Shown: piece by piece, positions 1 to 62,200 of the stretch
How positions within the stretch are numbered: position 1 is the stretch's first letter
Layout of the letters: each line of letters begins with the position of its first letter
Assembly (NCBI RefSeq): GCF_026151205.1
Contig: NC_087078.1
Coordinates: 4,543,675-4,607,674 of the forward strand
Source: Bolinopsis microptera
Lineage: Eukaryota > Ctenophora > Tentaculata > Lobata > Bolinopsidae
Length of the DNA: 64,000 nucleotides
Reading direction: 5' to 3'
Made by a program: the position numbers and the translations under genes
Notes under the pieces: model-generated
Seen by the model: the letters and a program-made list of their open reading frames with translations, nothing else
What the model was told of the DNA's origin: nothing
Databases searched by the model: none

Positions 1-3000
1 ACCTCCCAGTATCTTGCTACCTCCCAGTATCTTGCTACCTCCCAGTATCTTGCTACCTCCCAGTATCTTGCTATCTCCCAGTATCTTGCTACCTCCCAGT
101 ATCTTGCTACCTCCCAGTATCTTGCTACCTCCCAGTATCTTGCTACCTCCCAGTATCTTGCTATCTCCCAGTATCTTGCTACCTCCCAGTATCTTGCTAC
201 CTCCCAGTATCTTGCTACCTCCCAGTATCTTGCTATCTCCCAGTATCTTGCTACCTCCCAGTATCTTGCTACCTCCCAGTATCTTGCTATCTCCCAGTAT
301 CTTGCTACCTCCCAGTATCTTGCTACCTCCCAGTATCTTGCTACCTCCCAGTATCTTGCTACCTCCCAGTATCTTGCTACCTCCCAGTATCTTGCTACCT
401 CCCAGTTTCTTCCTACCTCCCAGTATCTTGCTACCTCCCAGTATCTTGCTACCTCCCAGTACCTTGCTACCTCCCAGTATCTTGCTACCTCCCAGTATCT
501 TGCTACCTCCCAGTATCTTGCTACCTCCCAGTATCTTGCTACCTCCCAGTTTCTTCCTACCTCCCAGTATCTTGCTACCTCCCAGTATCTTGCTACCTCC
601 CAGTTTCTTCCTACCTCCCAGTATCTTGCTACCTCCCAGTATCTTGCTACCTCCCAGTATCTTGCTACCTTCCAGTATCTTGCTACCTCCCAGTATCTTG
701 CTACCTCCCAGTATCTTGCTACCTCCCAGTATCTTGCTATCTCCCAGTATCTTGCTACCTCCCAGTATCTTGCTACCTCCCAGTATCTTGCTACCTCCCA
801 GTATCTTGCTACCTCCCAGTATCTTGCTACCTCCCAGTATCTTGCTACCTCCCAGTATCTTGCTATCTCCCAGTATCTTGCTACCTCCCAGTATCTTGCT
901 ACCTCCCAGTATCTTGCTACCTCCCAGTATCTTGCTACCTCCCAGTATCTTGCTATCTCCCAGTATCTTGCTACCTCCCAGTATCTTGCTACCTCCCAGT
1001 ATCTTGCTACCTCCCAGTATCTTGCTATCTCCCAGTATCTTGCTACCTCCCAGTATCTTGCTACCTCCCAGTATCTTGCTACCTCCCAGTATCTTGCTAT
1101 CTCCCAGTATCTTGCTACCTCCCAGTATCTTGCTACCTCCCAGTTTCATGCTATCTCCCAGTATCTTGCTACCTCCCAGTATCTTGCTACCTCCCAGTAT
1201 CTTGCTATCTCCCAGTATCTTGCTACCTCCCAGTATCTTGCTACCTCCCAGTATCTTGCTACCTCCCAGTATCTTGCTACCTCCCAGTTTCTTCCTACCT
1301 CCCAGTATCTTGCTACCTCCCAGTATCTTGCTACCTCCCAGTATCTTGCTACCTCCCAGTATCTTGCTACCTCCCAGTATCTTGCTACCTCCCAGTATCT
1401 TGCTACCTCCCAGTATCTTGCTACCTCCCAGTATCTTGCTATCTCCCAGTATCTTGCTACCTCCCAGTATCTTGCTATCTCCCAGTATCTTGCTATCTCC
1501 CAGTATCTTGCTACCTCCCAGTATCTTGCTACCTCCCAGTATCTTGCTACCTCCCAGTATCTTGCTACCTCCCAGTATCTTGCTACTTCCCAGTATCTTG
1601 CTACCTCCCAGTATCTTGCTACCTCCCAGTACCTTCCTACCTCCCAGTACCTTGCTACCTCCCAGTATCTTGCTACCTCCCAGTATCTTGCTACCTCCCA
1701 GTATCTTGCTACCTCCCAGTATCTTGCTACCTCCCAGTATCTTGCTACCTCCCAGTATCTTGCTACCTCCCAGTATCTTGCTACCTCCCAGTATCTTGCT
1801 ACCTCCCAGTATCTTACTACCTCCCAGTATCTTGCTACCTCCCAGTATCTTGCTACCTCCCAGTATCTTGCTACCTCCCAGTATCTTGCTACCTCCCAGT
1901 ATCTTGCTACCTCCCAGTATCTTGCTACCTCCCAGTATCTTGCTACCTCCCAGTATCTTGCTACCTCCCAGTATCTTGCTACCTCCCAGTATCTTGCTAC
2001 CTCCCAGTATCTTGCAGTATCCAGTATCTTGCTACCTCCCAGTATCTTGCTACCTCCCAGTATCTTGCTACCTCCCAGTATCTTGCAGTATCCAGTATCT
2101 TGCTACCTCCCAGTATCTTGCTACCTCCCAGTATCTTGCTACCTCCCAGTATCTTGCTACCTCCCAGTATCTTGCAGTATCCAGTATCTTGCTACCTCCC
2201 AGTATCTTGCAGTATCCAGTATCTTGCTACCTCCCAGTATCTTGCTACCTCCCAGTATCTTGCTACCTCCCAGTATCTTGCTACCTCCCAGTATCTTGCT
2301 ACCTCCCAGTATCTTGCTACCTCCCAGTATCTTGCTACCTCCCAGTATCTTGCAGTATCCAGTATCTTGCTACCTCCCAGTATCTTGCTACCTCCCAGTA
2401 TCTTGCAGTATCCAGTATCTTGCTACCTCCCAGTATCTTGCTACCTCCCAGTATCTTGCTACCTCCCAGTATCTTGCTACCTCCCAGTATCTTGCTACCT
2501 CCCAGTATCTTGCTACCTCCCAGTATCTTGCAGTATCCAGTATCTTGCTACCTCCCAGTATCTTGCTACCTCCCAGTATCTTGCTACCTCCCAGTATCTT
2601 GCTACCTCCCAGTATCTTGCTACCTCCCAGTATCTTGCTACCTCCCAGTATCTTGCTACCTCCCAGTATCTTGCAGTATCCAGTATCTTGCTACCTCCCA
2701 GTATCTTGCTACCTCCCAGTATCTTGCTACCTCCCAGTATCTTGCTACCTCCCAGTATCTTGCTACCACCCAGTATCTTGCTACCTCCCAGTATCTTGCA
2801 GTATCCAGTATCTTGCTACCTCCCAGTATCTTGCAGTATCCAGTATCTTGCTACCTCCCAGTATCTTGCTACCTCCCAGTATCTTGCTACCTCCCAGTAT
2901 CTTACTACCTCCCAGTATCTTGCTACCTCCCAGTATCTTGCTACCTCCCAGTATCTTGCTACCTCCCAGTATCTTGCTACCTCCCAGTATCTTGCTACCT

Positions 3001-4094
3001 CCCAGTATCTTGCTACCTCCCAGTATCTTGCTACCTCCCAGTATCTTGCTACCTCCCAGTATCTTGCTACCTCCCAGTATCTTGCTACCTCCCAGTATCT
3101 TGCTACCTCCCAGTATCTTGCTACCTCCCAGTATCTTGCTACCTCCCAGTATCTTGCTACCTCCCAGTATCTTGCTACCTCCCAGTATCTTGCTACCTCC
3201 CAGTATCTTGCTACCACCCAGTATCTTGCTACCTCCCAGTATCTTGCTACCTCCCAGTATCTTGCTACCTCCCAGTATCTTGCTACCTCCCAGTATCTTG
3301 CTACCTCCCAGTATCTTGCTACCTCCCAGTATCTTGCTACCTCCCAGTATCTTGCTATCTCCCAGTATCTTGCTACCTCTCAGTATCTTGCTACCTCCCA
3401 GTATCTTGCTACCTCCCAGTACCTTACTACCTCCCAGTATCTTGCTATCTCCCAGTATCTTGCTACCTCCCAGTATGTTGCTACCTCCCAGTATCTTGCT
3501 ATCTCCCAGTATCTTGCTACCTCCCAGTATCTTGCTACCTCCCAGTATCTTGCTACCTCCCAGTATCTTGCTACCTCCCAGTATCTTGCTACCTCCCAGT
3601 ATCTTGCTACCTCCCAGTATCTTGCTATATCCCAGTATCTTGCTACCTCCCAGTATCTTGCTACCTCCCAGTATCTTGCTATCTCCCAGTATCTTGCTAC
3701 CTCCCAGTATCTTGCTACCTCCCAGTACCTTACTACCTCCCAGTATCTTGCTATCTCCCAGTATCTTGCTACCTCCCAGTATGTTGCTACCTCCCAGTAT
3801 CTTGCTATCTCCCAGTATCTTGCTACCTCCCAGTATCTTGCTACCTCCCAGTATCTTGCTACCTCCCAGTATCTTGCTACCTCCCAGTATCTTGCTACCT
3901 CCCAGTATCTTGCTACCTCCCAGTATCTTGCTATATCCCAGTATCTTGCTACCTCCCAGTATCTTGCTACCTCCCAGTATCTTGCTATCTCCCAGTATCT
4001 TGCTACCTCCCAGTATCTTGCTACCTCCCAGTACCTTACTACCTCCCAGTATCTTGCTACCTCCCAGTATCTTGCTACCTCCCAGTATCTTGCT
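1..4094. repeat. 18-bp minisatellite array, runs off left edge
   Basis: Unbroken tandem array of an 18-bp unit (ATCTTGCTACCTCCCAGT), about 227 copies, beginning before the window. Variant units carry TTTCTTCC, ACCTTACT or GCTATCTCC. Between about 2010 and 2840 the array is repeatedly phase-shifted by short TTGCAGTATCCAGT junctions. Near the right end a 306-bp block (17 units) is duplicated: the ACCTTACTAC variant recurs at 3421, 3727 and 4033. Because 18 is a multiple of three, several frames stay open for hundreds of codons on both strands. I do not regard these as genes. If the mannosidase gene continues leftward, the array lies in one of its introns. Confidence 0.97.
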
Positions 4095-24987: not shown

Positions 24988-25429
24988 GTTTGTAACATTT
25001 TTACTTGTAGTTTTATTAGCACAGGCAGTGCTACTTGGAGTCTGGAGATGTTGTTAAAACATCAGCCACATACCTTAAATTATTAGTACTAGCATTAATA
25101 TATAGTAGTATATGATACCATATATAAATACTATATAAATATGTTGAAAATATTAGAACATTATATGTTTTGTGCACTGTTTTTATGAGCTAAGTTGACC
25201 GGTTCAAAAGTGCAAACGCATGCTTTAAATCAAACTCTGTATTAGCTAAAAACGTGATCGACGTAAAATAATAGTGCCAATTAACGGAACGTATTAAACA
25301 AAATAAACGAGTTAAGTGGAGAGATGACATTGTTGATTAATATAATATAGGTTATTAATTCTTTAGTGTACATTATTTTCATTTTTACCATAATTTTTTA
25401 ATATCGTCGAATTATAATATGATAAAATT

Positions 25430-28400
25430 GGCAAGTTTCCATAAACGATATTTTATGATCGGCGCCGATAATCGCTTATTGAGCGCTTTTTCGGCGCTTT
25501 TTTTTTTAAAAACCGTTTACAATCGCTTTTTTTACGATTATAAACGGTTCAAAAAAAATCGCTTATAATCGACTATAATTGATGTCATAATTCAAAAAAG
25601 CGCTTTTTTGAATTTAAAAGCGCTTATAAGCGCTTTTAAGCGCTTACTAGCGTCGCTGAGCGATTTGAAAGCGGTTTTCCAGTAGGATTGGCGCCAAAAA
25701 CGGGTGGATAAGCGGTTGGCCGGATAAGCGATTCGTAGGCGCTTTTTTGAACCATTTATAAGCGATTATAAGCGCTTATAATCGGGGTGCAATTTAGCTG
25801 TTTGTAAAGCGCAAATAAAGCGCTTATAAGCGCTTTTTAAATTGAGTCAGGAAAACGCTATATTACACCTTATAACCGCTTATAATCGATTATAAGCGTT
25901 TTTTTAGAAATCGCTTATTACGGCTAATTCATCGCTATTTTACCGCTTTTCCTATCATCCATGGCCAGGTGAGCAGGAATTAAAAAGCGCTTATAAGCGC
26001 TTTTTCAATGCTGCCCCTTACCTGGTCGGAACGGGGTAGTGCCCGGAATTAAAAAGCGCTTATAAACGATTTCTCAATTCTCTTCAACCTGGTCGGAACT
26101 GGAGAGTGCCCACTTGCATGTGCTTTTCTGAGCAACTTGGGGTGCACCGGCAGAGTCAGGATTTAAAAGCGCTTATAGGCGCTTATGATTGCTTTTCTAC
26201 CGCTTTTCCCATCACCCATGGCCTGGTTGGCAAGAATTATAAAGCGCTTATAAGCGTTTTTTCAATGCTGCCCCTAACCTGGTCGGAACGGGGGAGTGCC
26301 TGGAATTAATAAGCGCTTATAAGCGATTTCTCAATTCCCCTTAACCTGGTCGGAACTAGAAATCAGAGTGCCCGCTTATTAGTGCTTTTCTGTGCAACCT
26401 GGGGTGCACCGGCAGAGTCGGGATTTAAAAGCGCTTATAGGCGCTTATGATCGCTTTTCTACCGCTTTTCCCATTACCCATGGCCTGGTTGGCAAGAATT
26501 ATAAGCGCTTTTTCAATGCTACCCCTAACCTGGTCGGAACGGGGGAGTGCCTGGAATTAATAAGCGCTTATAAGCGATTTCTGAATTCCCCTTAACCTGG
26601 TCGGAACTGGAAATCAGAGTGCCCGCTTATAAGTTCTTTTCTGTGCAACCTGGGGTGCACCGGCAGAGTCAGGATTTAAAAGCGCTTATAGGCGCTTATG
26701 ATCACTTTTCTACCGCTTTTCCTATCGCCCATGGCCTGGTTGGCAGGAATTAGAAAGCGCTTATAAGAGCTTTTTCAATGCTGCCACTAACCTGGTCGCA
26801 ACGGGGGAGTGCCCGGAATTAAAAGGCGCTTATAAGCACTTTTTCAATGCTGCCCCTAACCTGGTCGGAACGGGGGAGTGCCCGGAATTTAAAAGCGCTT
26901 ATAGTTATAAGCGATTTCTCAATTCCCTTCAACCTGGTCGGAACTGGAGAGTGCCCACTCGTATGTGCTTTTCTGAGCAAACTGGGGTGCACCGGCAGAG
27001 TCAGGATTTAAAAGCGCTTATAGGCGCTTATGATCGCTTATCTACCGCTTTTCCCATCACCCATGGGCTGGTTGGCAGGAATTAGAAAGCGCTTATAAGC
27101 GCTTTTTTAATGCTGCCCCTAAGGATTTGGAAAGCGGTTATAAGCGATAACAATCACTTTTTATTGCTGGTTTTTACCGATTTATCTATCATTTATCAAC
27201 ATGGATTTAAACATAGTTGTTTGACTGGCGATCTAGAAGCCAAGCAAGAAGGCTAAGTTCACGGCGCGGCAAAGTTCTCCGACAATAATTGTCAGAAATT
27301 GTAAAGCGCTTGCAAGCGTTTATTTATATGTTGTTAATGGTGGTGGTTGTCCTGGTGGCGGTCGATGCGCGCTGCGCGTGCGTCATCAGCATAGTTGTTA
27401 AGTCCGTCGAAGAAATGCGAAAAGTTCGTCCAGTTCGGCACCTTTTAAAAATTCGTGAAAATTCGTGAAAATTCGTTGCGTAAATTTTCTTGGCATATGT
27501 TTTGATTTTATAATGAATGGCTTAGGTGCGATCACTATTACACTTGTAAACAAGTGCGCTGTATACAATATTGTATAGCGTGTACGCCGTGTACAATTTG
27601 TGGTGAGCAAAATTTAGAAAATTGGTATTTCAATTGTCCAGTGATCTGAATTTTGGGAGGTCATTAAAAATTCGGTTAAAGTTCGTCTATTTCGTTAAAA
27701 AATTCGTCCAGTTCGGCACCTTTTAAAAGTTCGTCCAGGACGTCCGTAACAACTATGGTCATCAGTGATCAGTCATACACACTTCACATTCAGAACTTGC
27801 AAAAGAAAAATATAGTATATGAAATTAAATTATTGCGCTGGGCCACGCTCAGTCTGTCAACGAGTATGACAGGCCTGTTTATGTCATTCCAAGGAATCTC
27901 GAGTCGGGCTGAGCGAATCACGACGTCTGAAAAAAGTGCGGTGCTCATTGAAAGTTAGTGTGTGCGTGACCAGCATTCACGTACTTGTTCATAATCAATC
28001 GTGGACATAAAAACAAGTGCACGCTGAGTACCAATACTAATAGGAAAAAAGTAATGTATATATACGCTAGTAAAGCCGTGCGCGTGCAGGCGTGCTGAGA
28101 TAGCTTGTAAAATTTGGTTATTAGATAGTAAAACTGCAACAAATAAACCGCGCCAGCTTGCGCGTTTGAATCGCTCCTACGAAATCGCTCGCCCAAATTT
28201 CAAGAAAATTATTGTGAAAAGGCCTTTGGGTATGACATTGATCTAACTCGGTGTAACTGTATTTTTTGGACGCTGATCCCGAATCACCCGCCATGACGTA
28301 GGGTAAAAATATTTCCCTGGAGAGTTACATGGGCAAAAACCGTTTTAGTCACGTGACAGGCTAGTAAAACATGATTTCGATTGTTTAGGGCTCATGTTAG

Positions 28401-31253
28401 GGTTTGGGTTAAGGTACGCGGGTTATGGATAGCTTTGGGGTTATGGTTGGGATTAGGGTGATACTCGTAATATATTTGTTTCAAATATTAGGACCGTCGA
28501 CGATTGACGGATGTTACTCGTCTAAATTTCTTCGAAGTAGCACGCGCCGCTTTCTTCTCGATGGCAAGTGCTACGAAGTAGCGCGCGCCGGGCCAGATCA
28601 TTAACAATGGTCAACGTCGACGAGTCTTGTCATACGTTGTATGACCCGCCGCGCACGAAGTGCGCGGCTCCCCCTGTAGCGTCGAAGAAACGACCGTGGG
28701 GGTCACCACGTGATACAAGACGAGTCCAACTCGGCGCGCGTCCTGGTAGGTTATTAACCTACAAGGACGCTTCAATTCCGAATCAACCCTCATGGCTGTA
28801 TTATATATAGTTATAACCATAAGTTTGTGTGTTTATAACCATACAAGACGTATTTATACCATGCAAAACGTATTTATAAGCATGCAAGACACTTAATTGT
28901 CGCCGGTCTAATTGCTTATATTTGTAATAAATATTTTAAGAGTATCACTTGACCATTGCATGTTACATGTTACTGGTCTGGCCCGACAAGCGGCGCGCGC
29001 TACTTTAGACGAGTAACATCCGTCAATTAAGAGTATCACCTGTTAACCATGGGTATTGGGTCTATTTGTATCATTCAGGTCGCGTCGTGACATAGTCATA
29101 AGTAAATTAAACAATTGCGCGGTAATTGGCGAGGCCCAGTCTAGTGGTGAATTTTTACCAAACTAGCGAAGCGCAATGTTGAATGTGATTGCGAGAATTG
29201 ACGGGTAACACTCGTAAAATATTTGTTCCATATAATTATATTGGAGTCCAACTCGGCTTTTACTAATTCACTCGCCCAAAAATTTCACGTGACTTTGGTT
29301 TTTATGGTTTTGCAGCCGTACAAAACGGTTTTACATAAATCCTAATCCCAACCCTAACCCTAACCATAACCCCGAAGTTAACCATAACCCTTACCACAAG
29401 CCTAACCCTAACCCGGGCCCTAAACAATCGAATTCGTATTTTACTAGCCTGTCACGTGACCAAAACGGTTTTTTGCCCATAACTCTCCAGGGAAGCATTT
29501 TAACCCTACGTCATGGGGGGGGGTGATTCGGAATCAGCGTCCAAAAATACACCGATCTAGATCACTTTCATGCCCCAAAGGGCCTTTTCACAAGAATTTC
29601 CTTAAAATTTGGGCGAGCGATTTAGTAGAAGCGGTAGAAAAGCGATCATAAGCGCCTATAAGCGCTTTTAAATCCTGATTCTGCCGGTGACCCCAGGTTG
29701 CACAGAAAAGCACTTATAACTATAAGCAGGCACACTGATGACCAGTTCTGACCAGGTTAAGGGGAATTGAGAAATCGCTTATAAGCGCAGCATTTAAAAA
29801 GCGCTAATGAGCGCTTTTTAATTCCGGGCACTCCCCCGTTCCGACCAGGTTATTGGCAGCATTGAAAAAGCGCTTATAAGCGCTTTCTAATTCTTGCCAA
29901 CCAGGCCATGGGTGATAGGAAAAGCGGTAGAAAAGCGATCATAAGCGCTTTTAAATCCTGACTCTGCCGTGTACCCCAGGTTGCTCAGAAAAGCACTTAT
30001 AAGCGGGCACTCTGATTTCCAGTTCCGACCAGGTTAGGGGCAGCATTTAAAAAGCGCTTATGAGCGTTTTTTAATTCCGGGCACTCCCCCGTTCCGACCA
30101 ATTTAGTGGCAGCATTGAAAAAGCGCTTATAAGCGCTTTCTAATTCCTGCCAACCAGGGGTGATACGAAAAGCGGTAGAAAAGCGATCATAAGCGCTTTT
30201 AAATCCTGACTCTGCCGGTGCACCCCAGGTTGCTCAGAAAAGCACTTATTAGCGGGCACTCTGATTTCCAGTTCCGACCAGGTTAGGGGCAGCATTTAAA
30301 AAGCGCTTAAGAGCGCTTTTTAATTCCGGGCACTCCCCTGTTCCGACCAAGTTAGTGGCAGCATTGAAAAAGCGCTTATAAGCGCTTTTTAATCCCGGGC
30401 ACTCCCCCGTTCCGACCAGGTTAGGGGCAGCATTGAAAAAACGTTTATAAGCGCTTTATAATTCTTGCCAACCAGGCCATGGGTGATAGGAAAAGCGGTA
30501 GATAAGCGATCATAAGCGCTTTTAAATCCTGACTCTGCCGGTGCACCCCAGGTTGCTCAGAAAAGCACATGCAAGTTCCAACCAGGTTAAGGGGAATTGA
30601 GAAATCGCTTATAAGCGCTTTTAAACTCCGGGCACTACCCCGTTCCGACCAGGTTAGGGGCAGCATTGAAAAAGCGCTTATAAGCGATTTTTAATTCCTG
30701 CTCACCTGGCCATGGATGATAGGAAAAGCGGTAAAAGCGGTGAAATAGCGATGAATTAGCCGTAATAAGCGATTTCTAAAAAAACGCTTATAATCGATTA
30801 TAAGCGGTTATAAGGTGTAATATAGCGTTTTCCTGACTCAATTTAAAAAGCGCTTATAAGCGCTTTATTTGCGCTTTACAAACAGCTAAATTGCACCCCG
30901 ATTATAAGCGCTTATAATCGCTTATAAATGGTTCAAAAAAGCGCCTACGAATCGCTTATCCGGCCAACCGCTTATCCACCCGTTTTTGGCGCCAATCCTA
31001 CTGGAAAACCGCTTTCAAATCGCTCAGCGACGCTAGTAAGCGCTTAAAAGCGCTTATAAGCGCTTTTAAATTCAAAAAAGCGCTTTTTTGAATTATGACA
31101 TCAATTATAGTCGATTATAAGCGATTTTTTTTGAACCGTTTATAATCGTAAAAAAAGCGATTGTAAACGGTTTTAAAAAAAAAAAGCGCCGAAAAAGCGC
31201 TCAATAAGCGATTATCGGCGCCGATCATAAAATATCGTTTATGGAAACTTGCC
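25430..31253. mobile_element. 5.8-kb foldback transposon with long inverted arms
   Basis: The ends are inverted copies starting GGCAAGTTTCCATAAACGAT. The outermost ~550 bp of each arm are nearly identical. The exact 8-bp direct repeat ATAAAATT flanks the element at 25422-25429 and 31254-31261. Each arm extends to about 1.6 kb (25430-27115 and 29640-31253). Inside the outer zone the arms consist of repeated modules with CCTGGTCGGAACGGGG, GGTGCACCGGCAGAGTC and CCATGGCCTGGTTGG blocks separated by AGCGCTTATAAGCGCT palindromes. The centre holds further inverted repeats. No frame exceeds about 90 codons, so it is non-autonomous. An 8-bp duplication, GG terminus and long arms fit Mutator-like or hAT-related foldback elements. 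The superfamily is unproven. Confidence 0.88.
28185..29625. mobile_element. Secondary inverted-repeat element nested in foldback core
   Basis: Left end AAATCGCTCGCCCAAATTT (about 28182) matches the inverted right end near 29605-29625. About 270 bp of each arm pair, through blocks such as AAAAGGCC, CGTTTTAGTCACGTGAC and ACTAGCCTGTCACGTGAC, to degenerate CCCTAA-type repeats (28390-28460, 29340-29410). A further inverted pair lies inside (about 28503-28610 against 28965-29030, sharing GACGGATGTTACTCGTCTAA). Confidence 0.7.
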
Positions 31254-31261
31254 ATAAAATT

Positions 31262-36489: not shown

Positions 36490-39400
36490 CAATACCAACT
36501 AGCACTTGCTTACTGAGTCACTAAGAATACAACTAGCACTTGCTAACTGAGTCACTAACAATACCAACTAGCACTTGCTAACTGAGTCACTAACAATACC
36601 AACTAGCACTTGCTAACTGAGCCACTAAGAATACAACTAGCACTTGCTAACTGAGCCACTAGCAATACCAATTAGCACTTGCTAACTGAGCCACTAAGAA
36701 TACAACTAGCACTTGCTAACTGAGCCACTAGCAATACCAATTAGCACTTGCTAACTGAGCCACTAGCAATACCAACTAGCACTTGCTAATTGAGCCACTA
36801 ACAATACCAACTAGCACTTGCTAACTGAGTCACTAACAATACCAACTAGCACTTGCTAACTGAGCCACTAAGAATACCAACTAGCACTTGCTAACTGAGC
36901 CACTAAGAATACAACTAGCACTTGCTAATTGAGCCACTAATAATACCAACTAGCACTTGCTAACTGAGCCACTAAGAATACAACTAGCACTTGCTAACTG
37001 AGCCACTAACAATACCAACTAGCACTTGCTAACTGAGTCACTAAGAATACAACTAGCACTTGCTAACTGAGTCACTAAGAATACAACTAGCTCTTGCTAA
37101 CTGAGCCACCAAGAAAACAATTAGAACTTGCTAACTGAGTCACTAAGAATACAACTAGCACTTGCTAACTGAGCCACTAAGAATACAACTAGCACTTGCT
37201 AACTGAGCCACTAACAATACCAACTAGCACTTGCTAACTGAGTCACTAAGAATACAACTAGCACTTGCTAACTGAGTCACTAAGAATACAACTAGCACTT
37301 GCTAACTGAGCCACTAAGAATACCAACTAGCACTTGCTAACTGAGCCACTAAGAATACCAACTAGCACTTGCTAACTGAGCCACTAAGAATACAACTAGC
37401 ACTTGCTAATTGAGCCACTAAGAATACAACTAGCACTTGCTAACTGAGTCACTAAGAATACAACTAGCAGTAGCACTTGCTAACTGAGCCACTTAGAATA
37501 CAACTAGCACTTGCTAACTGAGTCACTAAGAATACCAACTAGCACTTGCTAACTGAGTCACTAAGAATACCAACTAGCACTTGCTAACTGAGTCACTAAG
37601 AATACAACTAGCACTTGCTAACTGAGTCACTAAGAATACAACCAGCACTTGCTAACTGAGCCACTAAGAATACCAACTAGCACTTGCTAACTGAGCCACT
37701 AAGAATAAAACTAGAACTTGCTAACTGAGTCACTAAGAATACAACTAGCACTTGCTAACTGAGCCACTAAGAATACAACTAGCACTTGCTAACTGAGTCA
37801 CTAAGAATACAACTAGCACTTGCTAACTGAGCCACTAAGAATACAACTAGCACTTGCTAACTGAGTCACTAAGAATACCAACTAGCACTTACTAACTGAG
37901 TCACTAAGAATACCAACTAGCACTTGCTAACTGAGTCACTAAGAATACAACTAGCACTTGCTAACTGAGTCACTAAGAATACAACTAGCACTTGCTAACT
38001 GAGCCACTAAGAATACCAACTAGCACTTGCTAACTGAGCCACTAAGAATAAAACTAGAACTTGCTAACTGAGTCACTAAGAATACAACTAGCACTTGCTA
38101 ACTGAGCCACTAAGAATACAACTAGCACTTGCTAACTGAGTCACTAAGAATACAACTAGCACTTGCTAACTGAGCCACTAAGAATACAACTAGCACTTGC
38201 TAACTGAGCCACTAAGAATACAACTAGCACTTGCTAACTGAGCCACTAGCAATACAACTAGCACTTGCTAAGTGAGCCACTAACAATACAACTAGCACTT
38301 GCTAACTGAGCCACTAGCAATACCAACTACCACTTGCTAACTGAGCCACTAACACTACCAACTAGCACTTGCTAACTGAGCCACTAAGAATACAACTAGC
38401 ATTTGCTAAGTGAGCCACTAAGAATACAACTAGCACTTGCTAACTGAGCCACTAAGAATACAACTAGCACTTGCTAACTGAGTCACTAAGAATACAACTA
38501 GCAGTAGCACTTGCTAACTGAGCCACTAAGAATAAAACTAGAACTTGCTAACTGAGTCACTAAGAATACAACTAGCACTTGCTAACTGAGCCACTAAGAA
38601 TACAACTAGCACTTGCTAACTGAGTCACTAAGAATACAACTAGCACTTGCTAACTGAGTCACTAAGAATACAACTAGCACTTGCTAACTGAGCCACTAAT
38701 AATACCAACTAGCACTTGCTAACTGAGCCACTAAGAATACAACTAGCACTTGCTAACTGAGCCACTAACAATACCAACTAGCACTTGCTAACTGAGTCAC
38801 TAAGAATACAACTAGCACTTGCTAACTGAGTCACTTAGAATACAACTAGCTCTTGCTAACTGAGCCACTAAGAAAACAATTAGAACTTGCTAACTGAGTC
38901 ACTAAGAATACAACTAGCACTTGCTAACTGAGCCACTAAGAATACAACTAGCACTTGCTAACTGAGCCACTAACAATACCAACTAGCACTTGCTAACTGA
39001 GTCACTAAGAATACAACTAGCACTTGCTAACTGAGTCACTAAGAATACAACTAGCACTTGCTAACTGAGCCACTAAGAATACCAACTAGCACTTGCTAAC
39101 TGAGCCACTAAGAATACAACTAGCACTTGCTAATTGAGCCACTAAGAATAAAACTAGAACTTGCTAACTGAGTCACTAAGAATACAACTAGCAGTAGCAC
39201 TTGCTAACTGAGCCACTAAGAATACAACTAGCACTTGCTAACTGAGTCACTAAGAATACCAACTAGCACTTACTAACTGAGTCACTAAGAATACCAACTA
39301 GCACTTGCTAACTGAGTCACTAAGAATACAACTAGCACTTGCTAACTGAGTCACTAAGAATACAACTAGCACTTGCTAACTGAGCCACTAAGAATACCAA

Positions 39401-42400
39401 CTAGCACTTGCTAACTGAGCCACTAAGAATAAAACTAGAACTTGCTAACTGAGTCACTAAGAATACAACTAGCACTTGCTAACTGAGCCACTAAGAATAC
39501 AACTAGCACTTGCTAACTGAGTCACTAAGAATACAACTAGCACTTGCTAACTGAGCCACTAAGAATACAACTAGCATTTGCTAACTGAGCCACTAAGAAT
39601 ACAACTAGCACTTGCTAACTGAGCCACTAGCAATACAACTAGCACTTGCTAAGTGAGTCACTAAGAATACAACTAGCACTTGCTAACTGAGCCACTAAGA
39701 ATACAACTAGCACTTGCTAACTGAGTCACTAAGAATACAACTAGCACTTGCTAACTGAGCCACTAAGAATACAACTAGCATTTGCTAACTGAGCCACTAA
39801 CAATACAACTAGCACTTGCTAACTGAGCCACTAGCAATACCAACTACCACTTGCTAACTGAGCCACTAACACTACCAACTAGCACTTGCTAACTGAGCCA
39901 CTAAGAATACAACTAGCATTTGCTAAGTGAGCCACTAAGAATACAACTAGCACTTGCTAACTGAGCCACTAAGAATACAACTAGCACTTGCTAACTGAGT
40001 CACTAAGAATACAACTAGCAGTAGCACTTGCTAACTGAGCCACTAAGAATAAAACTAGAACTTGCTAACTGAGTCACTAAGAATACAACTAGCACTTGCT
40101 AACTGAGCCACTAAGAATACAACTAGCACTTGCTAACTGAGTCACTAAGAATACAACTAGCACTTGCTAACTGAGTCACTAAGAATACAACTAGCACTTG
40201 CTAACTGAGCCACTAATAATACCAACTAGCACTTGCTAACTGAGCCACTAAGAATACAACTAGCACTTGCTAACTGAGCCACTAACAATACCAACTAGCA
40301 CTTGCTAACTGAGTCACTAAGAATACAACTAGCACTTGCTAACTGAGTCACTTAGAATACAACTAGCTCTTGCTAACTGAGCCACTAAGAAAACAATTAG
40401 AACTTGCTAACTGAGTCACTAAGAATACAACTAGCACTTGCTAACTGAGCCACTAAGAATACAACTAGCACTTGCTAACTGAGTCACTAAGAATACAACT
40501 AGCACTTGCTAACTGAGCCACTAAGAATACAACTAGCATTTGCTAACTGAGCCACTAAGAATACAACTAGCACTTGCTAACTGAGCCACTAGCAATACAA
40601 CTAGCACTTGCTAAGTGAGCCACTAACAATACAACTAGCACTTGCTAACTGAGCCACTAGCAATACCAACTACCACTTGCTAACTGAGCCACTAACACTA
40701 CCAACTAGCACTTGCTAACTGAGCCACTAAGAATACAACTAGCATTTGCTAAGTGAGCCACTAAGAATACAACTAGCACTTGCTAACTGAGCCACTAAGA
40801 ATACAACTAGCACTTGCTAACTGAGCCACTAGCAATACAACTAGCACTTGCTAATTGAGCCACTAACAATACAACTAGCACTTGCTAACTGAGCCACTAA
40901 GAATACAACTAGCACTTGCTAACTGAGCCACTAAGAATACCAACTAGCACTTGCTAACTGAGCCACTAAGAATAAAACTAGAACTTGCTAACTGAGTCAC
41001 TAAGAATACAACTAGCACTTGCTAACTGAGCCACTAAGAATACAACTAGCACTTGCTAACTGAGTCACTAAGAATACAACTAGCACTTGCTAACTGAGCC
41101 ACTAAGAATACAACTAGCACTTGCTAACTGAGCCACTAACACTACCAACTAGCACTTGCTAACTGAGCCACTAAGAATACAACTAGCACTTGCTAAGTGA
41201 GCCGCCACTAAGAATACAACTAGCACTTGCTAACTGAGCCACTAAGAATACAACTAGCACTTGCTAACTGAGTCACTAAGAATACAACTAGCAGTAGCAC
41301 TTGCGAACTGAGCCACTAAGAATACAACTAGCATTTGCTAAGTGAGCCACTAAGAATACAACTAGCACTTGCTAACTGAGCCACTAGCAATACCAACTAG
41401 CACTTGCTAACTGAGCCACTAACAATACCAACTAGCACTTGCTAACTGAGCCACTAAGAATACCAACTAGCACTTGCTAAGTGAGCCACTAAGAATACCA
41501 ACTAGCACTTGCTAACTGAGCCACTAAGAATCACAACTAGCACTTGCTAACTGAGCCACTAAGAATACAACTAGCACTTGCTAACTGAGCCACTAGCAAT
41601 ACAACTAGCACTTGCTAACTGAGTCACTAAGAATACAACTAGCACTTGCTAACTGAGTCACTAAGAATACCAACTAGCACTTGCTAACTGAGTCACTAAG
41701 AATACAACTAGCACTTGCTAACTGAGCCACTAAGAATACAACTAGCACTTGCTAACTGAGTCACTAAGAATACAACTAGCACTTGCTAACTGAGTCACTA
41801 AGAATACAACTAGCACTTGCTAACTGAGCCACTAAGAATACCAACTAGCACTTGCTAACTGAGCCACTAACAATACCAATTAGCACTTGCTAACTGAGCC
41901 ACTAGCAATACCAACTACCACTTGCTAACTGAGCCACTAACACTACCAACTAGCACTTGCTCACTAAGAATACCAACTAGCACTTACTAACTGAGTCACT
42001 AAGAATACCAACTAGCACTTGCTAACTGAGTCACTAAGAATACAACTAGCACTTGCTAACTGAGTCACTAAGAATACAACTAGCACTTGCTAACTGAGCC
42101 ACTAAGAATACCAACTAGCACTTGCTAACTGAGCCACTAAGAATAAAACTAGAACTTGCTAACTGAGTCACTAAGAATACAACTAGCACTTGCTAACTGA
42201 GCCACTAAGAATACAACTAGCACTTGCTAACTGAGTCACTAAGAATACAACTAGCACTTGCTAACTGAGCCACTAAGAATACAACTAGCACTTGCTAACT
42301 GAGCCACTAAGAATACAACTAGCACTTGCTAACTGAGCCACTAGCAATACAACTAGCACTTGCTAAGTGAGCCACTAACAATACAACTAGCACTTGCTAA

Positions 42401-44035
42401 CTGAGCCACTAGCAATACCAACTACCACTTGCTAACTGAGCCACTAACACTACCAACTAGCACTTGCTAACTGAGCCACTAAGAATACAACTAGCATTTG
42501 CTAAGTGAGCCACTAAGAATACAACTAGCACTTGCTAACTGAGCCACTAGCAATACCAACTAGCACTTGCTAACTGAGCCACTAACAATACCAACTAGCA
42601 CTTGCTAACTGAGCCACTAAGAATACCAACTAGCACTTGCTAAGTGAGCCACTAAGAATACCAACTAGCACTTGCTAACTGAGCCACTAAGAATCACAAC
42701 TAGCACTTGCTAACTGAGCCACTAAGAATACAACTAGCACTTGCTAACTGAGCCACTAGCAATACAACTAGCACTTGCTAACTGAGTCACTAAGAATACA
42801 ACTAGCACTTGCTAACTGAGCCACTAGCAATACCAACTAGCACTTGCTAACTGAGCCACTAACAATACCAACTAGCACTTGCTAACTGAGCCACTAAGAA
42901 TACCAACTAGCACTTGCTAAGTGAGCCACTAAGAATACCAACTAGCACTTGCTAACTGAGCCACTAAGAATCACAACTAGCACTTGCTAACTGAGCCACT
43001 AAGAATACAACTAGCACTTGCTAACTGAGCCACTAGCAATACAACTAGCACTTGCTAACTGAGTCACTAAGAATACAACTAGCACTTGCTAACTGAGTCA
43101 CTAAGAATACCAACTAGCACTTGCTAACTGAGTCACTAAGAATACAACTAGCACTTGCTAACTGAGCCACTAAGAATACAACTAGCACTTGCTAACTGAG
43201 TCACTAAGAATACAACTAGCACTTGCTAACTGAGTCACTAAGAATACAACTAGCACTTGCTAACTGAGCCACTAAGAATACCAACTAGCACTTGCTAACT
43301 GAGCCACTAACAATACCAATTAGCACTTGCTAACTGAGCCACTAACAATACCAATTAGCACTTGCTAACTGAGTCACTAAGAATACCTACTAGCACTTGC
43401 TAACTGAGCCACTTACAATACCAACTAGCACTTGCTAACTGAGCCACTAAGAATACAACTAGCACTTGCTAACTGAGCCACTAACAATACCAACTAGCAC
43501 TTGCTAACTGAATCACTAAGAATACCAACTAGCACTTGCTAACTGAGTCACTAAGAATACCAACTAGCACTTGCTAACTGAGTCACTAAGAATACAACTA
43601 GCACTTGCTAACTGAGCCACTAACAATACCAATTAGCACTTGCTAACTGAGCCACTAACAATACCAATTAGCACTTGCTAACTGAGTCACTAAGAATACC
43701 TACTAGCACTTGCTAACTGAGCCACTTACAATACCAACTAGCACTTGCTAACTGAGCCACTAAGAATACAACTAGCACTTGCTAACTGAGCCACTAACAA
43801 TACCAACTAGCACTTGCTAACTGAATCACTAAGAATACCAACTAGCACTTGCTAACTGAGTCACTAAGAATACCAACTAGCACTTGCTAACTGAGCCACT
43901 AGCAATACCAATTAGCACTTGCTAACTGAGCCACTAACAATACCAATTAGCACTTGCTAACTGAGTCACTAAGAATACAACTAGCACTTGCTAACTGAGC
44001 CACTAAGAATACAACTAGCACTTGCTAATTAAGCC
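36490..44035. repeat. 7.5-kb satellite array of a 34/35-bp unit
   Basis: Well over 200 copies of a unit of the form AACTAGCACTTGCTAACTGA + GCCACTAAGAATACA. Two length forms (ATACAACT or ATACCAACT) and two core forms (TGAGCCA or TGAGTCA) alternate. Larger blocks are duplicated: the rare AGCAGTAGCAC variant recurs near 37470, 38500, 39190, 40020 and 41290, and the CCAACTACCAC variant near 38325, 39840, 40670, 41900 and 42420, indicating higher-order repeats. Stops in all frames show it is non-coding. It lies between exons 35962 and 50252/50881 of the MTUS-like locus. Confidence 0.98.
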
Positions 44036-45180
44036 ACTATTACCTGACATGTATGGTTATATTCCAACTCCCTTGGTTCCTGTGTAATACTCCGCATAAC
44101 ACCTGGTATCAGCTGGTATCAGCTGGTCTATGTGTGTTTGTAAGTTGTATCGCTACTGTCTACACTATGCTGCTGCAGTATTGCTGTTTACATTATCGGT
44201 TATTTTTATATTATACAGGCTTTTCCTTTAACCTGGTCTGATTATTATTATTTAGTTTTGAAAAAACCAGAATAACTGAAGCCTGCCTGTTAAGAGCACG
44301 TGTCATGTTAGCTTAATAGTATTTAATAAATGTTTAGTAAAGTACAATTAATGCAAATTAATGAAAATAACAAGTAATGAACCAGGGTACATTGCACATT
44401 CCACTAAATTCCAAGTATTGTGGTATTTTAGTAGTCTATTGTTTATAGTATGTATACTATTATACTATATTCACCGCTCTATAATATATATGATATTGTT
44501 TAGGTTTTATTGAGAGAAATATAACATATTCACTATATATCTGCATCAGAAATTATTTTTATTACGACTACTAAATCAAATTACCCTATATAATATGATA
44601 TATGATTGAGTTGCAAAAACTAATTTTATTTTCCAATCCACTCGGTTTCTTGCGTTTCTTAACTAAACTATCCGAGCTCTCGTTTTGACACGTGCATTAG
44701 GAAAATGTTAGCATAATATATGCATTTATGTAGCTGTATAATTATTATTGTTTATGTTGCAGTATGTTGCTTCAATGTTTATTTGTTATCATTTGTCTAC
44801 ACAGTTGTTTGCTTCTGTACTTTATTCTGCTAGTCGGACTCTGACGATATAATTACATTGATATTGGCCATTTAGTGTTGCTTCGAGCAAACTTTTAATT
44901 AAAACATATATCAGAGAAGGGGGGTATGGTATGGGAAAATAGTTATTTTTTGAAAATTATGCCCATTCTGCCCATCGAAACACGACTCTTATTTTGTTGT
45001 TTTTCACAGAACTGCGAAACATATTATTATTGTTTCTGTTAGACTCTTATTTTCCACTACAATTATGTATTTGTTGTTGTGAAGTTCATTGATCTCCAAT
45101 AAATAAAAAAAACAAAAGAGTATATCTACATCAAAAGTATCTAAAGAATAGCAAAACATTCCATTCTCACCCAGTTCTCT

Positions 45181-45605: not shown

Positions 45606-47633
45606 CTAGCTAATACCTTGTTTTTAGGGTTTAGAGTAAAGCAGTGTTGTGCTTGTACACGCTCCTCGGTAACTTGACTAAATGTTAATTTACTAAACAG
45701 TTCACATAGCACCACTTTCAGCAGCACATCAGCTAGATTTTTACCCAAACAGTTCCTGGGGCCAACCATAAACGGGATGTAGCTACCAGTGGCCGGCCAC
45801 GGTGATGTCACGTGGTTTGGGGACGTCACGTGGTTTGGAGACGTCACGTGGTTGGGGGATGTCATGTGGTTTGGTGATGTCACGTGGTTTGGTGACGTCA
45901 CGTGGTTTGGTGACGTCACGTGGTTTGGTGACGTCACGTGGTTTGGTGACGTCACGTGGTTTGGTGACGTCACGTGGTTTGGTGACGTCACGTGGTTTGG
46001 TGATGTCACGTGGTTTGGTGACGTCATCCTGAGCCACCTGTCAGGAATGAAGCTGTTAGGATTGTCCCAGTAGCGTGGTAGCCTGTGCTGCACGTAAACA
46101 CACGCCTGTATCTGAGCTCCCCTAGGAATGAGGTACTGGCCCACTGTAGTAGGGGCCGTGTTGGTGCGGTGTGAGACGGGCCCAGGAGGAAACAGCCTCA
46201 TAGACTCAGCTATACAGGCGTTAAGATAAGGGATATCTCTGTACCAGGCAGGTGAGGAGAGATTAGCTTGTGTTATCTCCCTCACTAACCTCTCTCTGCT
46301 CTCTGCGTCCTCTAGAAGTAGAGCTATTGTGAATGCGAGGACGTTAGCTGCTGTGTCGTAACCTGCTATCAGGAACACTATGACGTCATCAACCATACCT
46401 TCTTCGTCACCATGGTTACAAGATATTATCATATCCAACATATCTTCTTTATCTTGACTTGCTCCCCTTGTAATTCTGTTGTGCAGTAACTGGCGACTAT
46501 ACTGTCTACTGACCCGCACTGCCTCACTCAGCTCCTTCTTTATCTGCCTGTCTAGAAAGGGAATATTGTTCCTCACTACAAAGAATGCTCGTTTAAATGC
46601 CGTGTTTAACATGGTGTGGAGGGAGTGTCTCACTTTACAACTAGTAACCATAGTAACGCTATCTGCTGAGTCACTAGTAACCTTAGTAACGCTATCTGTT
46701 GAGTCACTAGTAACCGCAGTAACGCTATCTACCCCGAATGCCAGGTGACTGATTATATCAAATGTTACTTGTTTGGACGCCTCCTCCATGTCCACTGCCC
46801 CAGTCTGTGTTGTGAGGGTGTCCACTAGCCGTGCAGTGTGTTCCTGTATCACTTCTACCCAGGAACTCTCGTGGAAGTTACTAAAGAATCTCCTGAAATT
46901 CCTGCGCTTGTGGGCCCATATAGCGGTGCCAGGCTCGTTGAAGATGCTGTTCAGTCCACAGATCCTGTGTCCCATACAGTAACCTAGGAATGGGTAGAGG
47001 AACTTCTCGTGAGGCTGGGAGAAGTAGGAGTGGAGGAAGTCACCATCCGTCAGACACACCTGAGAGAGAGACAACTAGTTTTATTTGGATAATTAAAATT
47101 ATAATTCTAATTATTGGCCCAATAAAAACATTGATTTCAGGAAATAAAAACTTGCGAACAGAAGAACAGTTTGAAGGTTATAAAAAGCATATGTTTCCAA
47201 CCTGCGGAGTGTTGTACAACCAGACTAAATAAAGTTGAGGGAACTGAATACTCCACTCCATTCTGAGCGAGTAAGCAGTCCCCTCCCTCCGCATAACCTT
47301 CAGGAGACTAGTCACGTGACCAGAGAAGAAGGAGACAGGAGGAGGTCCGGGGAGGTGGGAGTAGGAGGAGAGGAGGAGGAGGTGGGAGATAAGAGTCACT
47401 AGTAACCATAGTGATATTATCAGCAGTACAGTTACCAATCCAACTAACATGAAGACTAATAATAAGATAGCAGCAACTGGAGATACGAATAAGGTCCAAG
47501 AAAGTTGAGTAATAAACAAACCAGCACAAACAAAGGGGAGGGCAGTATACTGGTAGGTTTGGGAAGAGGACCATTGTTCAATAGTAAACTCAACAGTTAC
47601 TTTATAAGTCCTGTAAGATTGAGGCTGAGTCAC
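45479..47633 (-). CDS. Cytochrome P450 with in-frame repeat insertions, two exons
   Basis: Heme-thiolate monooxygenase, membrane-anchored. Substrate unknown. Exons 47633-47202 and 47059-45479 join in phase 0, giving 670 residues where about 500 is usual. Landmarks: hydrophobic N-terminus; hinge HLPGPPP (about 94-99); I-helix FLIAGYDTAAN (about 373-383); ESMR of the K-helix (about 429); FIPDRW, the PERF-like motif (about 481-486); FMVGPRNCLGK heme loop with Cys about 581. The general pattern is nearest CYP46/CYP4-type microsomal enzymes (low certainty). A Met at about residue 62 (47450), just before the hydrophobic segment, is a likelier start than the first ATG. Oddities: 12 copies of TSPNHV between PERF and heme loop, an 11-residue repeat (SVT-VTSDS-D) near 255-284, and a C-terminal VTER tail. 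It lies antisense within a putative MTUS-like intron. Confidence 0.93.
45802..46030. repeat. 18-bp coding minisatellite with CRE and E-box motifs
   Basis: Twelve units of TTTGGTGACGTCACGTGG, each holding TGACGTCA (CRE palindrome) and CACGTG (E-box), with GATGTC or GACGTC variants. It is in frame with the P450 on the minus strand and encodes TSPNHV repeats. Other frames are open too, but only as a consequence of the unit length. Confidence 0.97.
46648..46735. repeat. 33-bp coding repeat in P450
   Basis: Two to three copies of a 33-bp unit (plus strand GAGTCACTAGTAACC ... GTAACGCTATCT) encode the VTSDSxDSVTxVTS repeats in the P450 between its N-terminal half and the helix F/G region, probably a surface loop. 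Confidence 0.85.
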
Positions 47634-59200: not shown

Positions 59201-62200
59201 TAGTAACTATAGTATTGATGTAACACTGTAACACTGTAACACTGTAACACTGTAACACTGTAACACTGTAACACTGTAACACTGTAACACTGTAACACTG
59301 TAACTGCTGAAGTAATTGTGACGCTGGTGATTTTGTATTACAAAGAACCTCAAAAGTTAACTAATAGTACAGACAGAATAAATTTAATAAACCCTTTATT
59401 TCTATAATCTACTTTTTACATAAAATAACTCTAAATTATAGATTATTTTCTCACGGCACATAGCAGCAATTAAAAACCTGTCGTCACTCATTGAGCGATG
59501 AAAAGTTGAATAGTGCTCCCTAATTTTCTACTTCGGAGGAGATGAATTCTTTCGTTCCTGCAGCTTGCCCTTCTAAACTATATATATAGCCGGCGGTGGG
59601 GAACAGAGAGCATGCTTAGCTTAGCTAGCTTCATCTCGGGTTCAGACCTCGTACAAACTACACATATTCCGGGCTATTTCACAGTTTAGGAATGTAAACT
59701 GGTTCTATTAGATATCAACACCTAATTTCAATCAGTCTTAGTAGATATTGAAAATTTTCTAAAGAAACTAACAGAGTAACGGAGAGGCTAACAATTATTG
59801 GAATTTAAGAAACCTGTAGCCTATGATTCCGGAACGTTAATTATATTTCGTCCTCAAAGAAAAATATTATATAACTATAAAGCTTTGTTCTGTAAGTAAT
59901 GCTGGGTGTAATTTCTATTACACTAGAATAAGAACATAGTATTTCACTAAATTGTGAGTTGTATTATTCTAAAAAAGTGTTTGTTTTCACTAAGTTTTGT
60001 TATTATATAGGAGCAAGTGCAGCGCTACTCTACAATAAACGCAGAGCTACAATCCTTACGAGACGTTATTGACATGAGAAACGCGGAGATTAAGAAGCTG
60101 AACACTAAAGCCAAAGAAATAGAATTAAAGGTACGTCATCAATTATTATTATTATATATATATATCGTTTTACGCTCGACTGTGTCTTTAATTGCAGCTA
60201 TTGAGCTATAAATATAATAAAATGTATAATAATAATATAGTAGTTCGTCTTAATCTACCTAGTAACTATAGTAACTATATAATAGTAACTATAGTAACTA
60301 TAGTAACTATAGTAACTATAGCAACTGGTTTTCTACTCAGGTGGAGAATATCCCTGGTCTAGAGAAGGACTTGCGGAGTTACAAGGACCACAACGAACAA
60401 CTGCGCGCCACAATAGAGATGAAGGCTGAGTCTGAGCGAACCCTGAACCTCACACAGGAGACACTGTACCAGAATTTAAAAGAGAAGGAAACAGATAATA
60501 AAAACATTGTCCTCAAGTGTGAAGAACTACAATTCCGGGTAATGGAATGTCTTACTAATGGAATATCTTACTATATATAAAGCGAGACTTTACTGACACC
60601 ACGACATCAATTTTTACACGACTTTCCGCGAAAACTGTGAGGGATATACCATTGCAACTTTTTTGGTTGGGTTGATGATGATAATGATTTTATAGCCTTT
60701 TGACCAGTATGAATAAATATAAAAATTGGCCAAGGAATAAGAACTTCAAGTCCTGAAATCTGAATCCGGTGTAAAAATCAGAAAATAAATAAATATTGTT
60801 GTCTCTTGGCACGACTTTGTGGTTAGTTAGTTGTAGTTCCTGTTGCTCACAAGATACTCTCACCAGTTGTCCCTGATTGAGGAGAAGGAAGGAGGAAGTA
60901 ACGGGAAGATATTCGCGCCAATAAGCTACAGCACCCCTACCTGTAGCCCTAGAAGGCAGTTTTCCGAACCTCCTATCAGAACTTCTGATTCACCTTCTAA
61001 ACATTCCAACAGGTTAATTCTTACTTATTTTAATTAATTAACTTATTAATTATTTTAATTAATTAACTAATTGGATAATAATCTGTTATTGATTTTATAT
61101 GTAACAAGATACAATAAGGTTGATATATGATCGCTAAGATAACATATTTTAGAGTTGATACTACTGACACACAGAATCAGACTTTCTCTCGTACACGACA
61201 GACATCACTAGATTCAGGAACTTACCTTGTAAAAAGGAACTCTCTAAATGTGTTGAACGTGGGAGAGGATAACAAAATAGCTGATAAAATAATTAAAATC
61301 TCTAAAACAAGCGACACAATAAGAGATAGTCCAGTATGGATTGCGAGGAGGAGATGTTGTTCTGCCAACCAATCACACAGTACTGATAGAGTTTCTACTG
61401 ATAAGAAAACTGCTGATAAAAGTACTTCAGATTACAAGTCTCCTACTTCTCGCTCCAGAGCTCTATGGTTTGTTCCCATCTCTAGAAAGGATGGAGTTGA
61501 GTTAACTGATAAAACCATGGATACACCCGTGAAGTCTACTTCAAATCCGCTCTCATCCAAATCAGAATCACATCTCTTATCATCAGACATTTCTACTTCT
61601 TCTAGCCGACAACCCATTCGCTCCTCACTCCGACTCAAGAAGCACAAGCTGAAGAACAACAAGTTCACATACTCCAAATACCTTGCTCAAAAAGACAGCT
61701 CTGAAACTGATTCCCTCACAAAGTCTAATGTTTGTCTGACTCCGGGGGCTGGCAATAACATGTTACCTGACAACGCTTTAATAACGTGTAATATAACCAC
61801 CAAGGATAAACCGACGGAGGACTGCGAATCATTTGTAGATACTTATATTTCATTAGATGCTGCTGACATGGAGCTGAGGTCTGTTAAAAAAGACTGCGCC
61901 CAAAATACCACCCAAAATTTCACCAACACAGCTGATCCGGGTGATAAAATATCACCGGGTCCGGGCGATAGGCGGTCTTCTAGAGGTAAAAGTAAATCAC
62001 CAGGCAACACCACTACTAGTAAATCACCAGGCAACACCACTACCAGTAAATCACCAGGCAACACCACAACCAGTAAATCACCAGGCAACACCATTACCAG
62101 TAAATCACCAGGCAACATTATTACCAGTAAATCACCAGGCAACACCATTACCAGTAAATCACCAGGCAACACCATTACCAGTAAATCACCAGGCAACACC

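Follow-up and report, generated by a model that had tools for sequence, protein, structure and literature searches.

A long-armed foldback transposon of Bolinopsis microptera and its probably non-autonomous family, with Merlin as a candidate source of transposase

Results

Structure of the element

The window that we analyzed, a stretch of 64,000 nt from B. microptera, holds between positions 25430 and 31253 an element of 5,824 bp that begins with GGCAAGTTTCCATAAACGAT, terminates in the exact inverse of that motif, and is flanked on both sides by the octamer ATAAAATT. Its parts, given as positions within the window, are the following:

25422–25429 (no strand): left target-site duplication ATAAAATT, 8 bp; such duplications are exact in 18/21 elements
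25430–25449 (+): left end, terminal motif GGCAAGTTTCCATAAACGAT; at least 219 genome copies at ≤1 mismatch, control 0
25430–25949 (+): outer left arm of 520 bp, unlike its right counterpart at 2 positions
25950–27122 (+): inner left arm, with tandem modules, CCTGGTCGGAAC boxes, and AAGCGCTT palindromes; TRF periods 69, 251, and 332 bp
27170–29619 (no strand): loop, no coding capacity found; right border set in part by the definition of the arm
29620–30733 (−): inner right arm, tandem modules inverted; TRF periods 69, 249, and 318 bp
30734–31253 (−): outer right arm
31234–31253 (−): right end, terminal motif as the exact inverse of the left
31254–31261 (no strand): right target-site duplication ATAAAATT, 8 bp

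The initial annotation had described a foldback transposon with precise borders, nearly identical outer arms, an internal structure of repeated modules joined by palindromes, and no visible coding content, all of which descriptions withstood our analysis. The very long inverted arms, one of about 1.7 kb and the other of about 1.6 kb, enclose a loop of 2.45 kb (the borders being partly a matter of definition) and form most of the element. Their outer portions match over 539 nt at 98%—a match that takes in some of the flank—and differ at only 2 of 520 aligned positions. Sub-repeats recur inside the arms with TRF periods of 69, about 250, and 318–332 bp; CCTGGTCGGAACGGGG occurs in exact form four times in the left arm and three times, inverted, in the right; and the CCTGGTCGGAAC boxes number nine per arm at ≤2 mismatches, every one of them in the expected orientation. 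The palindrome AAGCGCTT was found 45 times in the element, whereas first-order Markov shuffling of its sequence gave 0.42 occurrences and the remaining ~58 kb of the window gave none. The loop, for its part, is a mosaic that has segments in common with the loops of other copies, and within it inner inverted copies can be recognized by eye (at about 28200–28450 versus 29340–29620). The longest stop-to-stop frame of the element has 127 aa and matched no Pfam family at E 0.01. This structure, along with the dispersed copies carrying target duplications that are described below, confirms that positions 25430–31253 constitute a foldback transposon, a real mobile DNA element.

Elsewhere in the window, very long minisatellites occupy positions 1–4094 (18 bp × 228) and 36491–44039 (34 bp × 219), with many others present in the 64 kb. 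A P450-like frame (PF00067; 45479–47074, −) has a repeat-built C-terminus and is interrupted at 45801–46026 by 12.6 copies of an 18-bp minisatellite that stays in frame and gives SPNHVT repeats, which gene has apparently been invaded by minisatellites; and a 570-aa frame (61124–62836, +) includes two in-frame minisatellites, one of 27 bp × 17.9 (SPGNTTTSK) and the other of 15 bp × 12.6 (NYTAN).

Copies in the genome and their target sites

In the assembly of the host (264.65 Mb in 232 contigs), the terminal 20-mer was present at no fewer than 219 places with ≤1 mismatch, compared with 0 for the reversed control, and exact termini totaled 200 (98 + 102), these and all other match counts being lower bounds obtained from the best candidates scored. 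The 198 listed exact ends formed 85 pairs of adjacent opposite ends that span from about 90 bp to 18.1 kb, with a median of 5.6 kb: 16 pairs are below 1 kb, 3 between 1 and 3 kb, 65 between 3 and 9 kb, and 1 of 18.1 kb (lengths in the pairing list are overstated by 1). We also found 70 variant ends and judged 32 of them to be family-like; since the control gave 36, about half of those 70 would be chance occurrences.

To the copy in the window we added 20 further two-ended copies with their flanks, and in 18 of these 21 elements the target duplications were exact and differed by locus, all of them being of 8 bp and none of 9 bp. The duplications of the remaining three contained one (L052), three (L039), and six (L043) mismatches, the last of these elements looking rearranged because its own arms differ at 92/486 positions. 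Exact duplications of 8 bp were likewise seen around three small copies, which range in length from 68 to 222 bp, around the 18.1-kb copy (CAAATTTT), and around two copies from related subfamilies (TAATGATC and CTAGATCC). Among six unpaired loci that we inspected (L009, L014, L023, L024, L031, and L036), a second end and a duplication were visible in three, and neither was found in the other three. Pooling both strands of the 21 sites yielded a target consensus of about SAAWWTTS in AT-rich DNA, and palindromy inside single target sites did not exceed that of shuffles (25 versus 26.1, of 84).

These data also settle two doubts that the initial annotation had raised. The element is not solitary, as the search with its terminal sequence made evident; and the reading of the locus as an inverted duplication generated by the assembly, with a flanking octamer arising by chance, can be dismissed, because there are 219 termini against 0 in the control and the duplications vary between loci, to which evidence the empty site described next may be added.

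An insertion with its empty counterpart

We compared 21 joined sites with the family loci already fetched, and one of the 21 proved positive. The element concerned (L044; C1:10969134), of 7,121 bp, is inserted in one of two tandem-repeat copies spaced by 547 bp. The other tandem copy (C1:10968497-10968676) equals the joined flanks of the element at 179/180 positions and contains GATTATTG once, which octamer stands twice around the element. We take this arrangement for a before/after insertion pair within one genome, a precise excision being less likely. Because the flanking duplicates are nearly identical (100% over 309 bp at the left, 99.2% over 248 bp at the right), the insertion looks young.

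Similarity of the arms within elements

The near-identity of the outer arms had initially been attributed to a recent insertion or to homogenization of the arms. When L043 was left out, the two arms of the same element differed on average by 0.90% (0.0090; median, 0.58%) across 16 large elements, compared with 2.29% (0.0229) for random left–right pairings, and 0/5000 permutations gave a value as low; with L043 included, the respective figures were 0.0196 and 0.0323 (3/2000 permutations). The attribution can accordingly be made more precise, in that arms of one element are closer to each other than arms paired at random, but the arm of the same element was the nearest of all arms in only 7/16 elements. 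Moreover, the changes private to an element were common to both arms in 12 instances and confined to one arm in 33, which proportion indicates that homogenization is incomplete. These results fit a partial homogenization within elements atop a young family, and subfamily ancestry can explain part of the similarity. A copy from a related subfamily (L079; C3:10320410-10327214), whose arms of 1,118 bp are 98.8% identical, has a (CA)n tract in both of them, for which the easiest explanation would be that one arm was copied onto the other.

Minimal copies and contents of the loops

The smallest copy (L024), flanked by the duplication CATTGTTT, is a near-palindrome of 68 bp with little beyond its two 34-bp ends, which composition implies that about 34 bp per end are enough for movement. 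The palindrome AAGCGCTT is absent from this copy and from another of 111 bp (L054), so that such palindromes cannot be essential.

The loops are mosaics of shared blocks and foreign DNA. One contains simple repeats, which account for its long frames (L042); another contains a LINE-like fragment (L060); that of L079 contains a LINE reverse transcriptase (RVT_1, 110.7 bits); and another related-subfamily element, with short ends and an exact 8-bp duplication (L078; C3:11295188-11298880), encloses a broken reverse-transcriptase-like gene, presumably Penelope-like, with a GIY-YIG match below the cut-off (20.1 versus 22.6 bits). By their size these last two elements had been candidates for autonomous copies, and we rejected them upon finding that their contents are genes of the reverse-transcriptase type, which genes may be nested insertions or captured DNA. 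Three copies of 8.1–8.2 kb combine shared blocks with unshared stretches and one 207-aa frame; this frame, whose only Pfam match was DUF6451 at 25.3 bits, under the cut-off of 28, we took for the end of a LINE, and no transposase-like frame was found in the ~5-kb interior stretches of the three. As to the 18.1-kb copy (C12:1517646-1535775; L074, L076, L077, and L075), about 12.9 of the 14.4 kb read from its interior were unmatched in the 21 elements, and those 14.4 kb held no frame above 132 aa.

Search for a transposase

The 21 two-ended elements contained no frame above 240 aa, the long frames of L042 being made of simple repeats, and a 212-aa frame of L043, located in DNA not common to the arms, matched no Pfam family; the Pfam scan of the loops (22 kb) covered selected ORFs. 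Within the genome there were at least 150 scored matches to hAT, 88 to MULE, and 58 to Merlin/IS1595 (PF12762), and a Merlin protein query located at least 125 places. Into a test of location we entered 198/200 exact termini, 32/70 variant ends, and 148/150 hAT, 87/88 MULE, and 118/125 Merlin places, the omissions lying on small contigs, beyond the matches listed, or overlapping or adjoining places already entered. Inside the 85 pairs there were 0/148 hAT, 0/87 MULE, and 0/118 Merlin places. The genome searches for the P-type domain PF21788 (GBD) and for KDZ (PF18758) each returned 0 candidates, which absences are weak because the controls also matched nothing.

No autonomous copy bearing the family ends was found in the assembly. 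Judged by the four types of search made in the present assembly, the family is therefore a non-autonomous one; and, as a transposase is lacking both from the copies read and from inside the pairs, it is probably mobilized in trans, in agreement with the initial proposal that the element must borrow its transposase.

Outside the pairs, but no more than 6 kb from a terminus, there are five Merlin fragments (C1:4836456-4840605, C10:6267094-6267243); at C1:4836456-4840814 a 222-bp foldback copy (around L009) sits between fragments of a Merlin-like gene. Two hAT matches are within that distance of a terminus, one (C1:10963790) outside its element and the other (C11:11584943) belonging to a decayed group with two sister copies on C4 away from such ends; a link between the family and the hAT near C11:11581237 was rejected.

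Merlin elements of the same genome

Five Merlin copies encode a 318-aa transposase that is 100% identical among them, each between GGCAACTTGTACGAACACCGATG ends 3.7–4.1 kb apart; the member of this family that we read (M64) has tandem-repeat arms of ~320–360 bp and no duplication at its locus. A second Merlin (M63; 337 aa) has GGTAACTCGGTAATCTGCCGATG ends, the 8-bp duplication GAATCGTC, and tandem-repeat arms of ~340–374 bp; a third (M67, of the same family as M62) has GGCAGTTTACAAGAAG ends, the 8-bp duplication GAATATCC, short repeats, and a shortened transposase of 266 aa; and a fourth (M65; 328 aa) has inverted repeat arms of 298 bp, the differing ends AGGTCAAAG, and no duplication. A further sequence (M66) gave no ends. 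Hence, of the four Merlin families read, three have GGCAAC/GGTAAC/GGCAGT ends and two have 8-bp duplications. An alignment of five Merlin proteins exhibited the conserved residues D155, D218, and E255 (numbered as in the first sequence), which we take as the putative DDE triad.

The ends of the foldback family start with GGCAAG, as befits the 5′-GG start of Merlin, and its 8-bp duplication is one of the two lengths, 8 or 9 bp, that are proper to that superfamily. No DDE_Tnp_IS1595 transposase was found inside the same ends (0/118 in 85 pairs), so that the grounds for a link with Merlin are the resemblance of the ends, the length of the duplication, and the architecture. Anchored at base 1, the foldback end reached a score of 6 with M64, scores of 5 and 6 with the two M67 ends, and a score of 0 with M63, in a profile to which the two ends of M67 contribute double weight and from which M65 was omitted because its end does not align. 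Of 20,000 random 20-mers from the window, 45 equaled the best Merlin score of the foldback end and 2 its mean; among the 5,075 20-mers starting with GG, the numbers were 130 and 9. Scores between one Merlin family and another run from −2 to 6, so that the foldback end, which is similar but not identical to theirs, falls within this range. When the comparison was left unanchored, a shuffle test gave no significant result (487, 2851, 432, and 3000 of 3000 for M64, M63, M67, and M65, respectively).

Discussion

Origin of the family

We assign a probability of roughly 0.55 to the reading that the copy in the window belongs to a young, high-copy, non-autonomous foldback family moved by a DDE transposase supplied in trans. 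The superfamily, which the initial annotation had been unable to name, would most likely be Merlin, and to judge from the ends and duplications the chances that the transposase is of that (IS1595/IS1016) kind are about even. More tentatively still, Merlin could be a further foldback-producing superfamily—minisatellite-armed in this genome—that mobilizes a family of ~200 termini with no gene-bearing copy found and with members of 68 bp to 18 kb, which family would persist through hairpin homogenization and loop capture.

An unlikely alternative would be a foldback derivative of a Mutator-like element of the Phantom/Muta1/Tm1 type, moved by a MULE transposase. Described foldbacks are said in the accessible text of PMC4079207 to be mostly Mutator, Muta1 makes 8- or 9-bp duplications, carries repeats in its TIRs, and has derivatives by the hundreds (PMC5225508, accessible text), and the 8 bp and long arms of the present family agree with the duplication of 8–11 bp and the usually long TIR of MULEs (PMC6446971, accessible text). 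The genome, with at least 88 MULE matches, also contains an element (L080; C12:4735400-4740000) whose FLYWCH+MULE ORF has 482 aa, whose inverted ends carry tandem repeats, and which may have an 8-bp duplication beside poorly matching outermost bases (5/14 mismatched). With these possibly asymmetric outermost bases, the element is reminiscent of Tm1 from root-knot nematodes. Nevertheless, 0/87 MULE matches were located within 6 kb of the termini entered (198 exact + 32 variant), let alone inside the same ends; all 18 exact duplications were of 8 bp, with no 9-bp case; and, in a comparison involving one MULE family, 4,629 of 20,000 random 20-mers scored as well against the MULE ends as did the foldback end.

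A derivation from hAT, from P in the manner of Galileo, from KDZ, or from some undescribed superfamily that makes 8-bp duplications seems to us equally improbable. Duplications of that length are produced by hAT, P, and KDZ, and hAT is abundant in this genome; but the ends of hAT and P differ from a GGCAA start, no hAT was present inside a pair (0/148), and the P and KDZ searches gave 0 candidates, as did their controls. The structural match with Galileo is close, the longest copy of that element being one of 9,021 bp with TIRs of 4.2 + 4.7 kb and without transposase (PMC4168063, accessible text).

Proposed mechanism and significance

Returning to a non-autonomous family moved in trans, its copies insert with an 8-bp duplication, have a small cis-requirement, and, where read, are devoid of a transposase. 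A DDE transposase supplied in trans would recognize the outer 20–35 bp of both arms, excise the element, and reinsert it by cut-and-paste into AT-rich sites that approximate SAAWWTTS, the cuts being staggered by 8 bp. Gap repair, gene conversion, or template switching via the hairpin could then equalize the arms, and these same hairpin processes might shrink copies into MITEs and let the loops gain foreign DNA. The AAGCGCTT palindromes, which the smallest copies lack, may be either auxiliary transposase sites or by-products.

To our knowledge, Merlin transposition has rarely been studied. Many near-intact copies, a filled/empty pair, copies as small as 68 bp, and candidate transposases in the same genome open two old questions to experiment, namely the identity of the enzymes that mobilize foldbacks and the means by which foldback arms stay alike. 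The minimal copies, in turn, point toward the cis-requirement.

Comparison with known systems

Merlin elements have a terminal GG, 8–9-bp duplications, TIRs of 24–462 bp, and often internal tandem repeats (PMC8101967, accessible text), and the foldback end resembles those of two of the three Merlin families of this genome that were profiled; the family differs from Merlin in that no transposase was found for it and in its arms of more than 1.1 kb, its foldback architecture, and its mosaic loops. The word "Foldback" is absent from the accessible text of PMC8101967, and no foldback tied to Merlin was seen among the literature matches listed, with one plant TE review, accessible in part, holding all the terms. 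A text search of the literature with 14 or 18 bases of the forward end gave no match, and neither the reverse-complement end nor the arm motif was in print among the matches listed.

Galileo, a Drosophila element of the P superfamily, is similar in its very long repeat-bearing arms, transposase-less copies, and size variants, and differs in its duplications of 7 bp, rarely 8 bp, and its GTANTAC preference (PMC4168063, accessible text), as well as in having a P-type transposase, of which kind none was found here in a search whose control (PF21788) also gave 0. Tetris, Muta1, and Tm1 share with the present family arms divided into outer and tandem-repeat domains, MITE-like derivatives, and duplications of similar length (8–10 bp, cf. 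8 bp here), according to the accessible text of PMC4079207, PMC5225508, and PMC3169594; Muta1 and Tm1 have a MULE transposase (PMC5225508, PMC3169594), and for Tetris no autonomous element is known and the source of transposase is unassigned in that portion of PMC4079207. The ends of these three are different, and no MULE match was near the termini of the present family.

The TU elements of sea urchins combine long inverted repeats, short tandem repeats, and 8-bp duplications, so that by description, not by sequence, they resemble the present family in repeat-bearing inverted arms and duplication length; we know of no transposase superfamily assigned to TU. Sea urchin foldbacks are named in the accessible text of PMC4079207, and elements linked to Mutator or to P are already known to have a foldback structure (PMC4079207, PMC3169594, PMC5225508, and PMC4168063, in their accessible portions); if the link with Merlin holds, the present family would represent a new way for foldback elements to originate.
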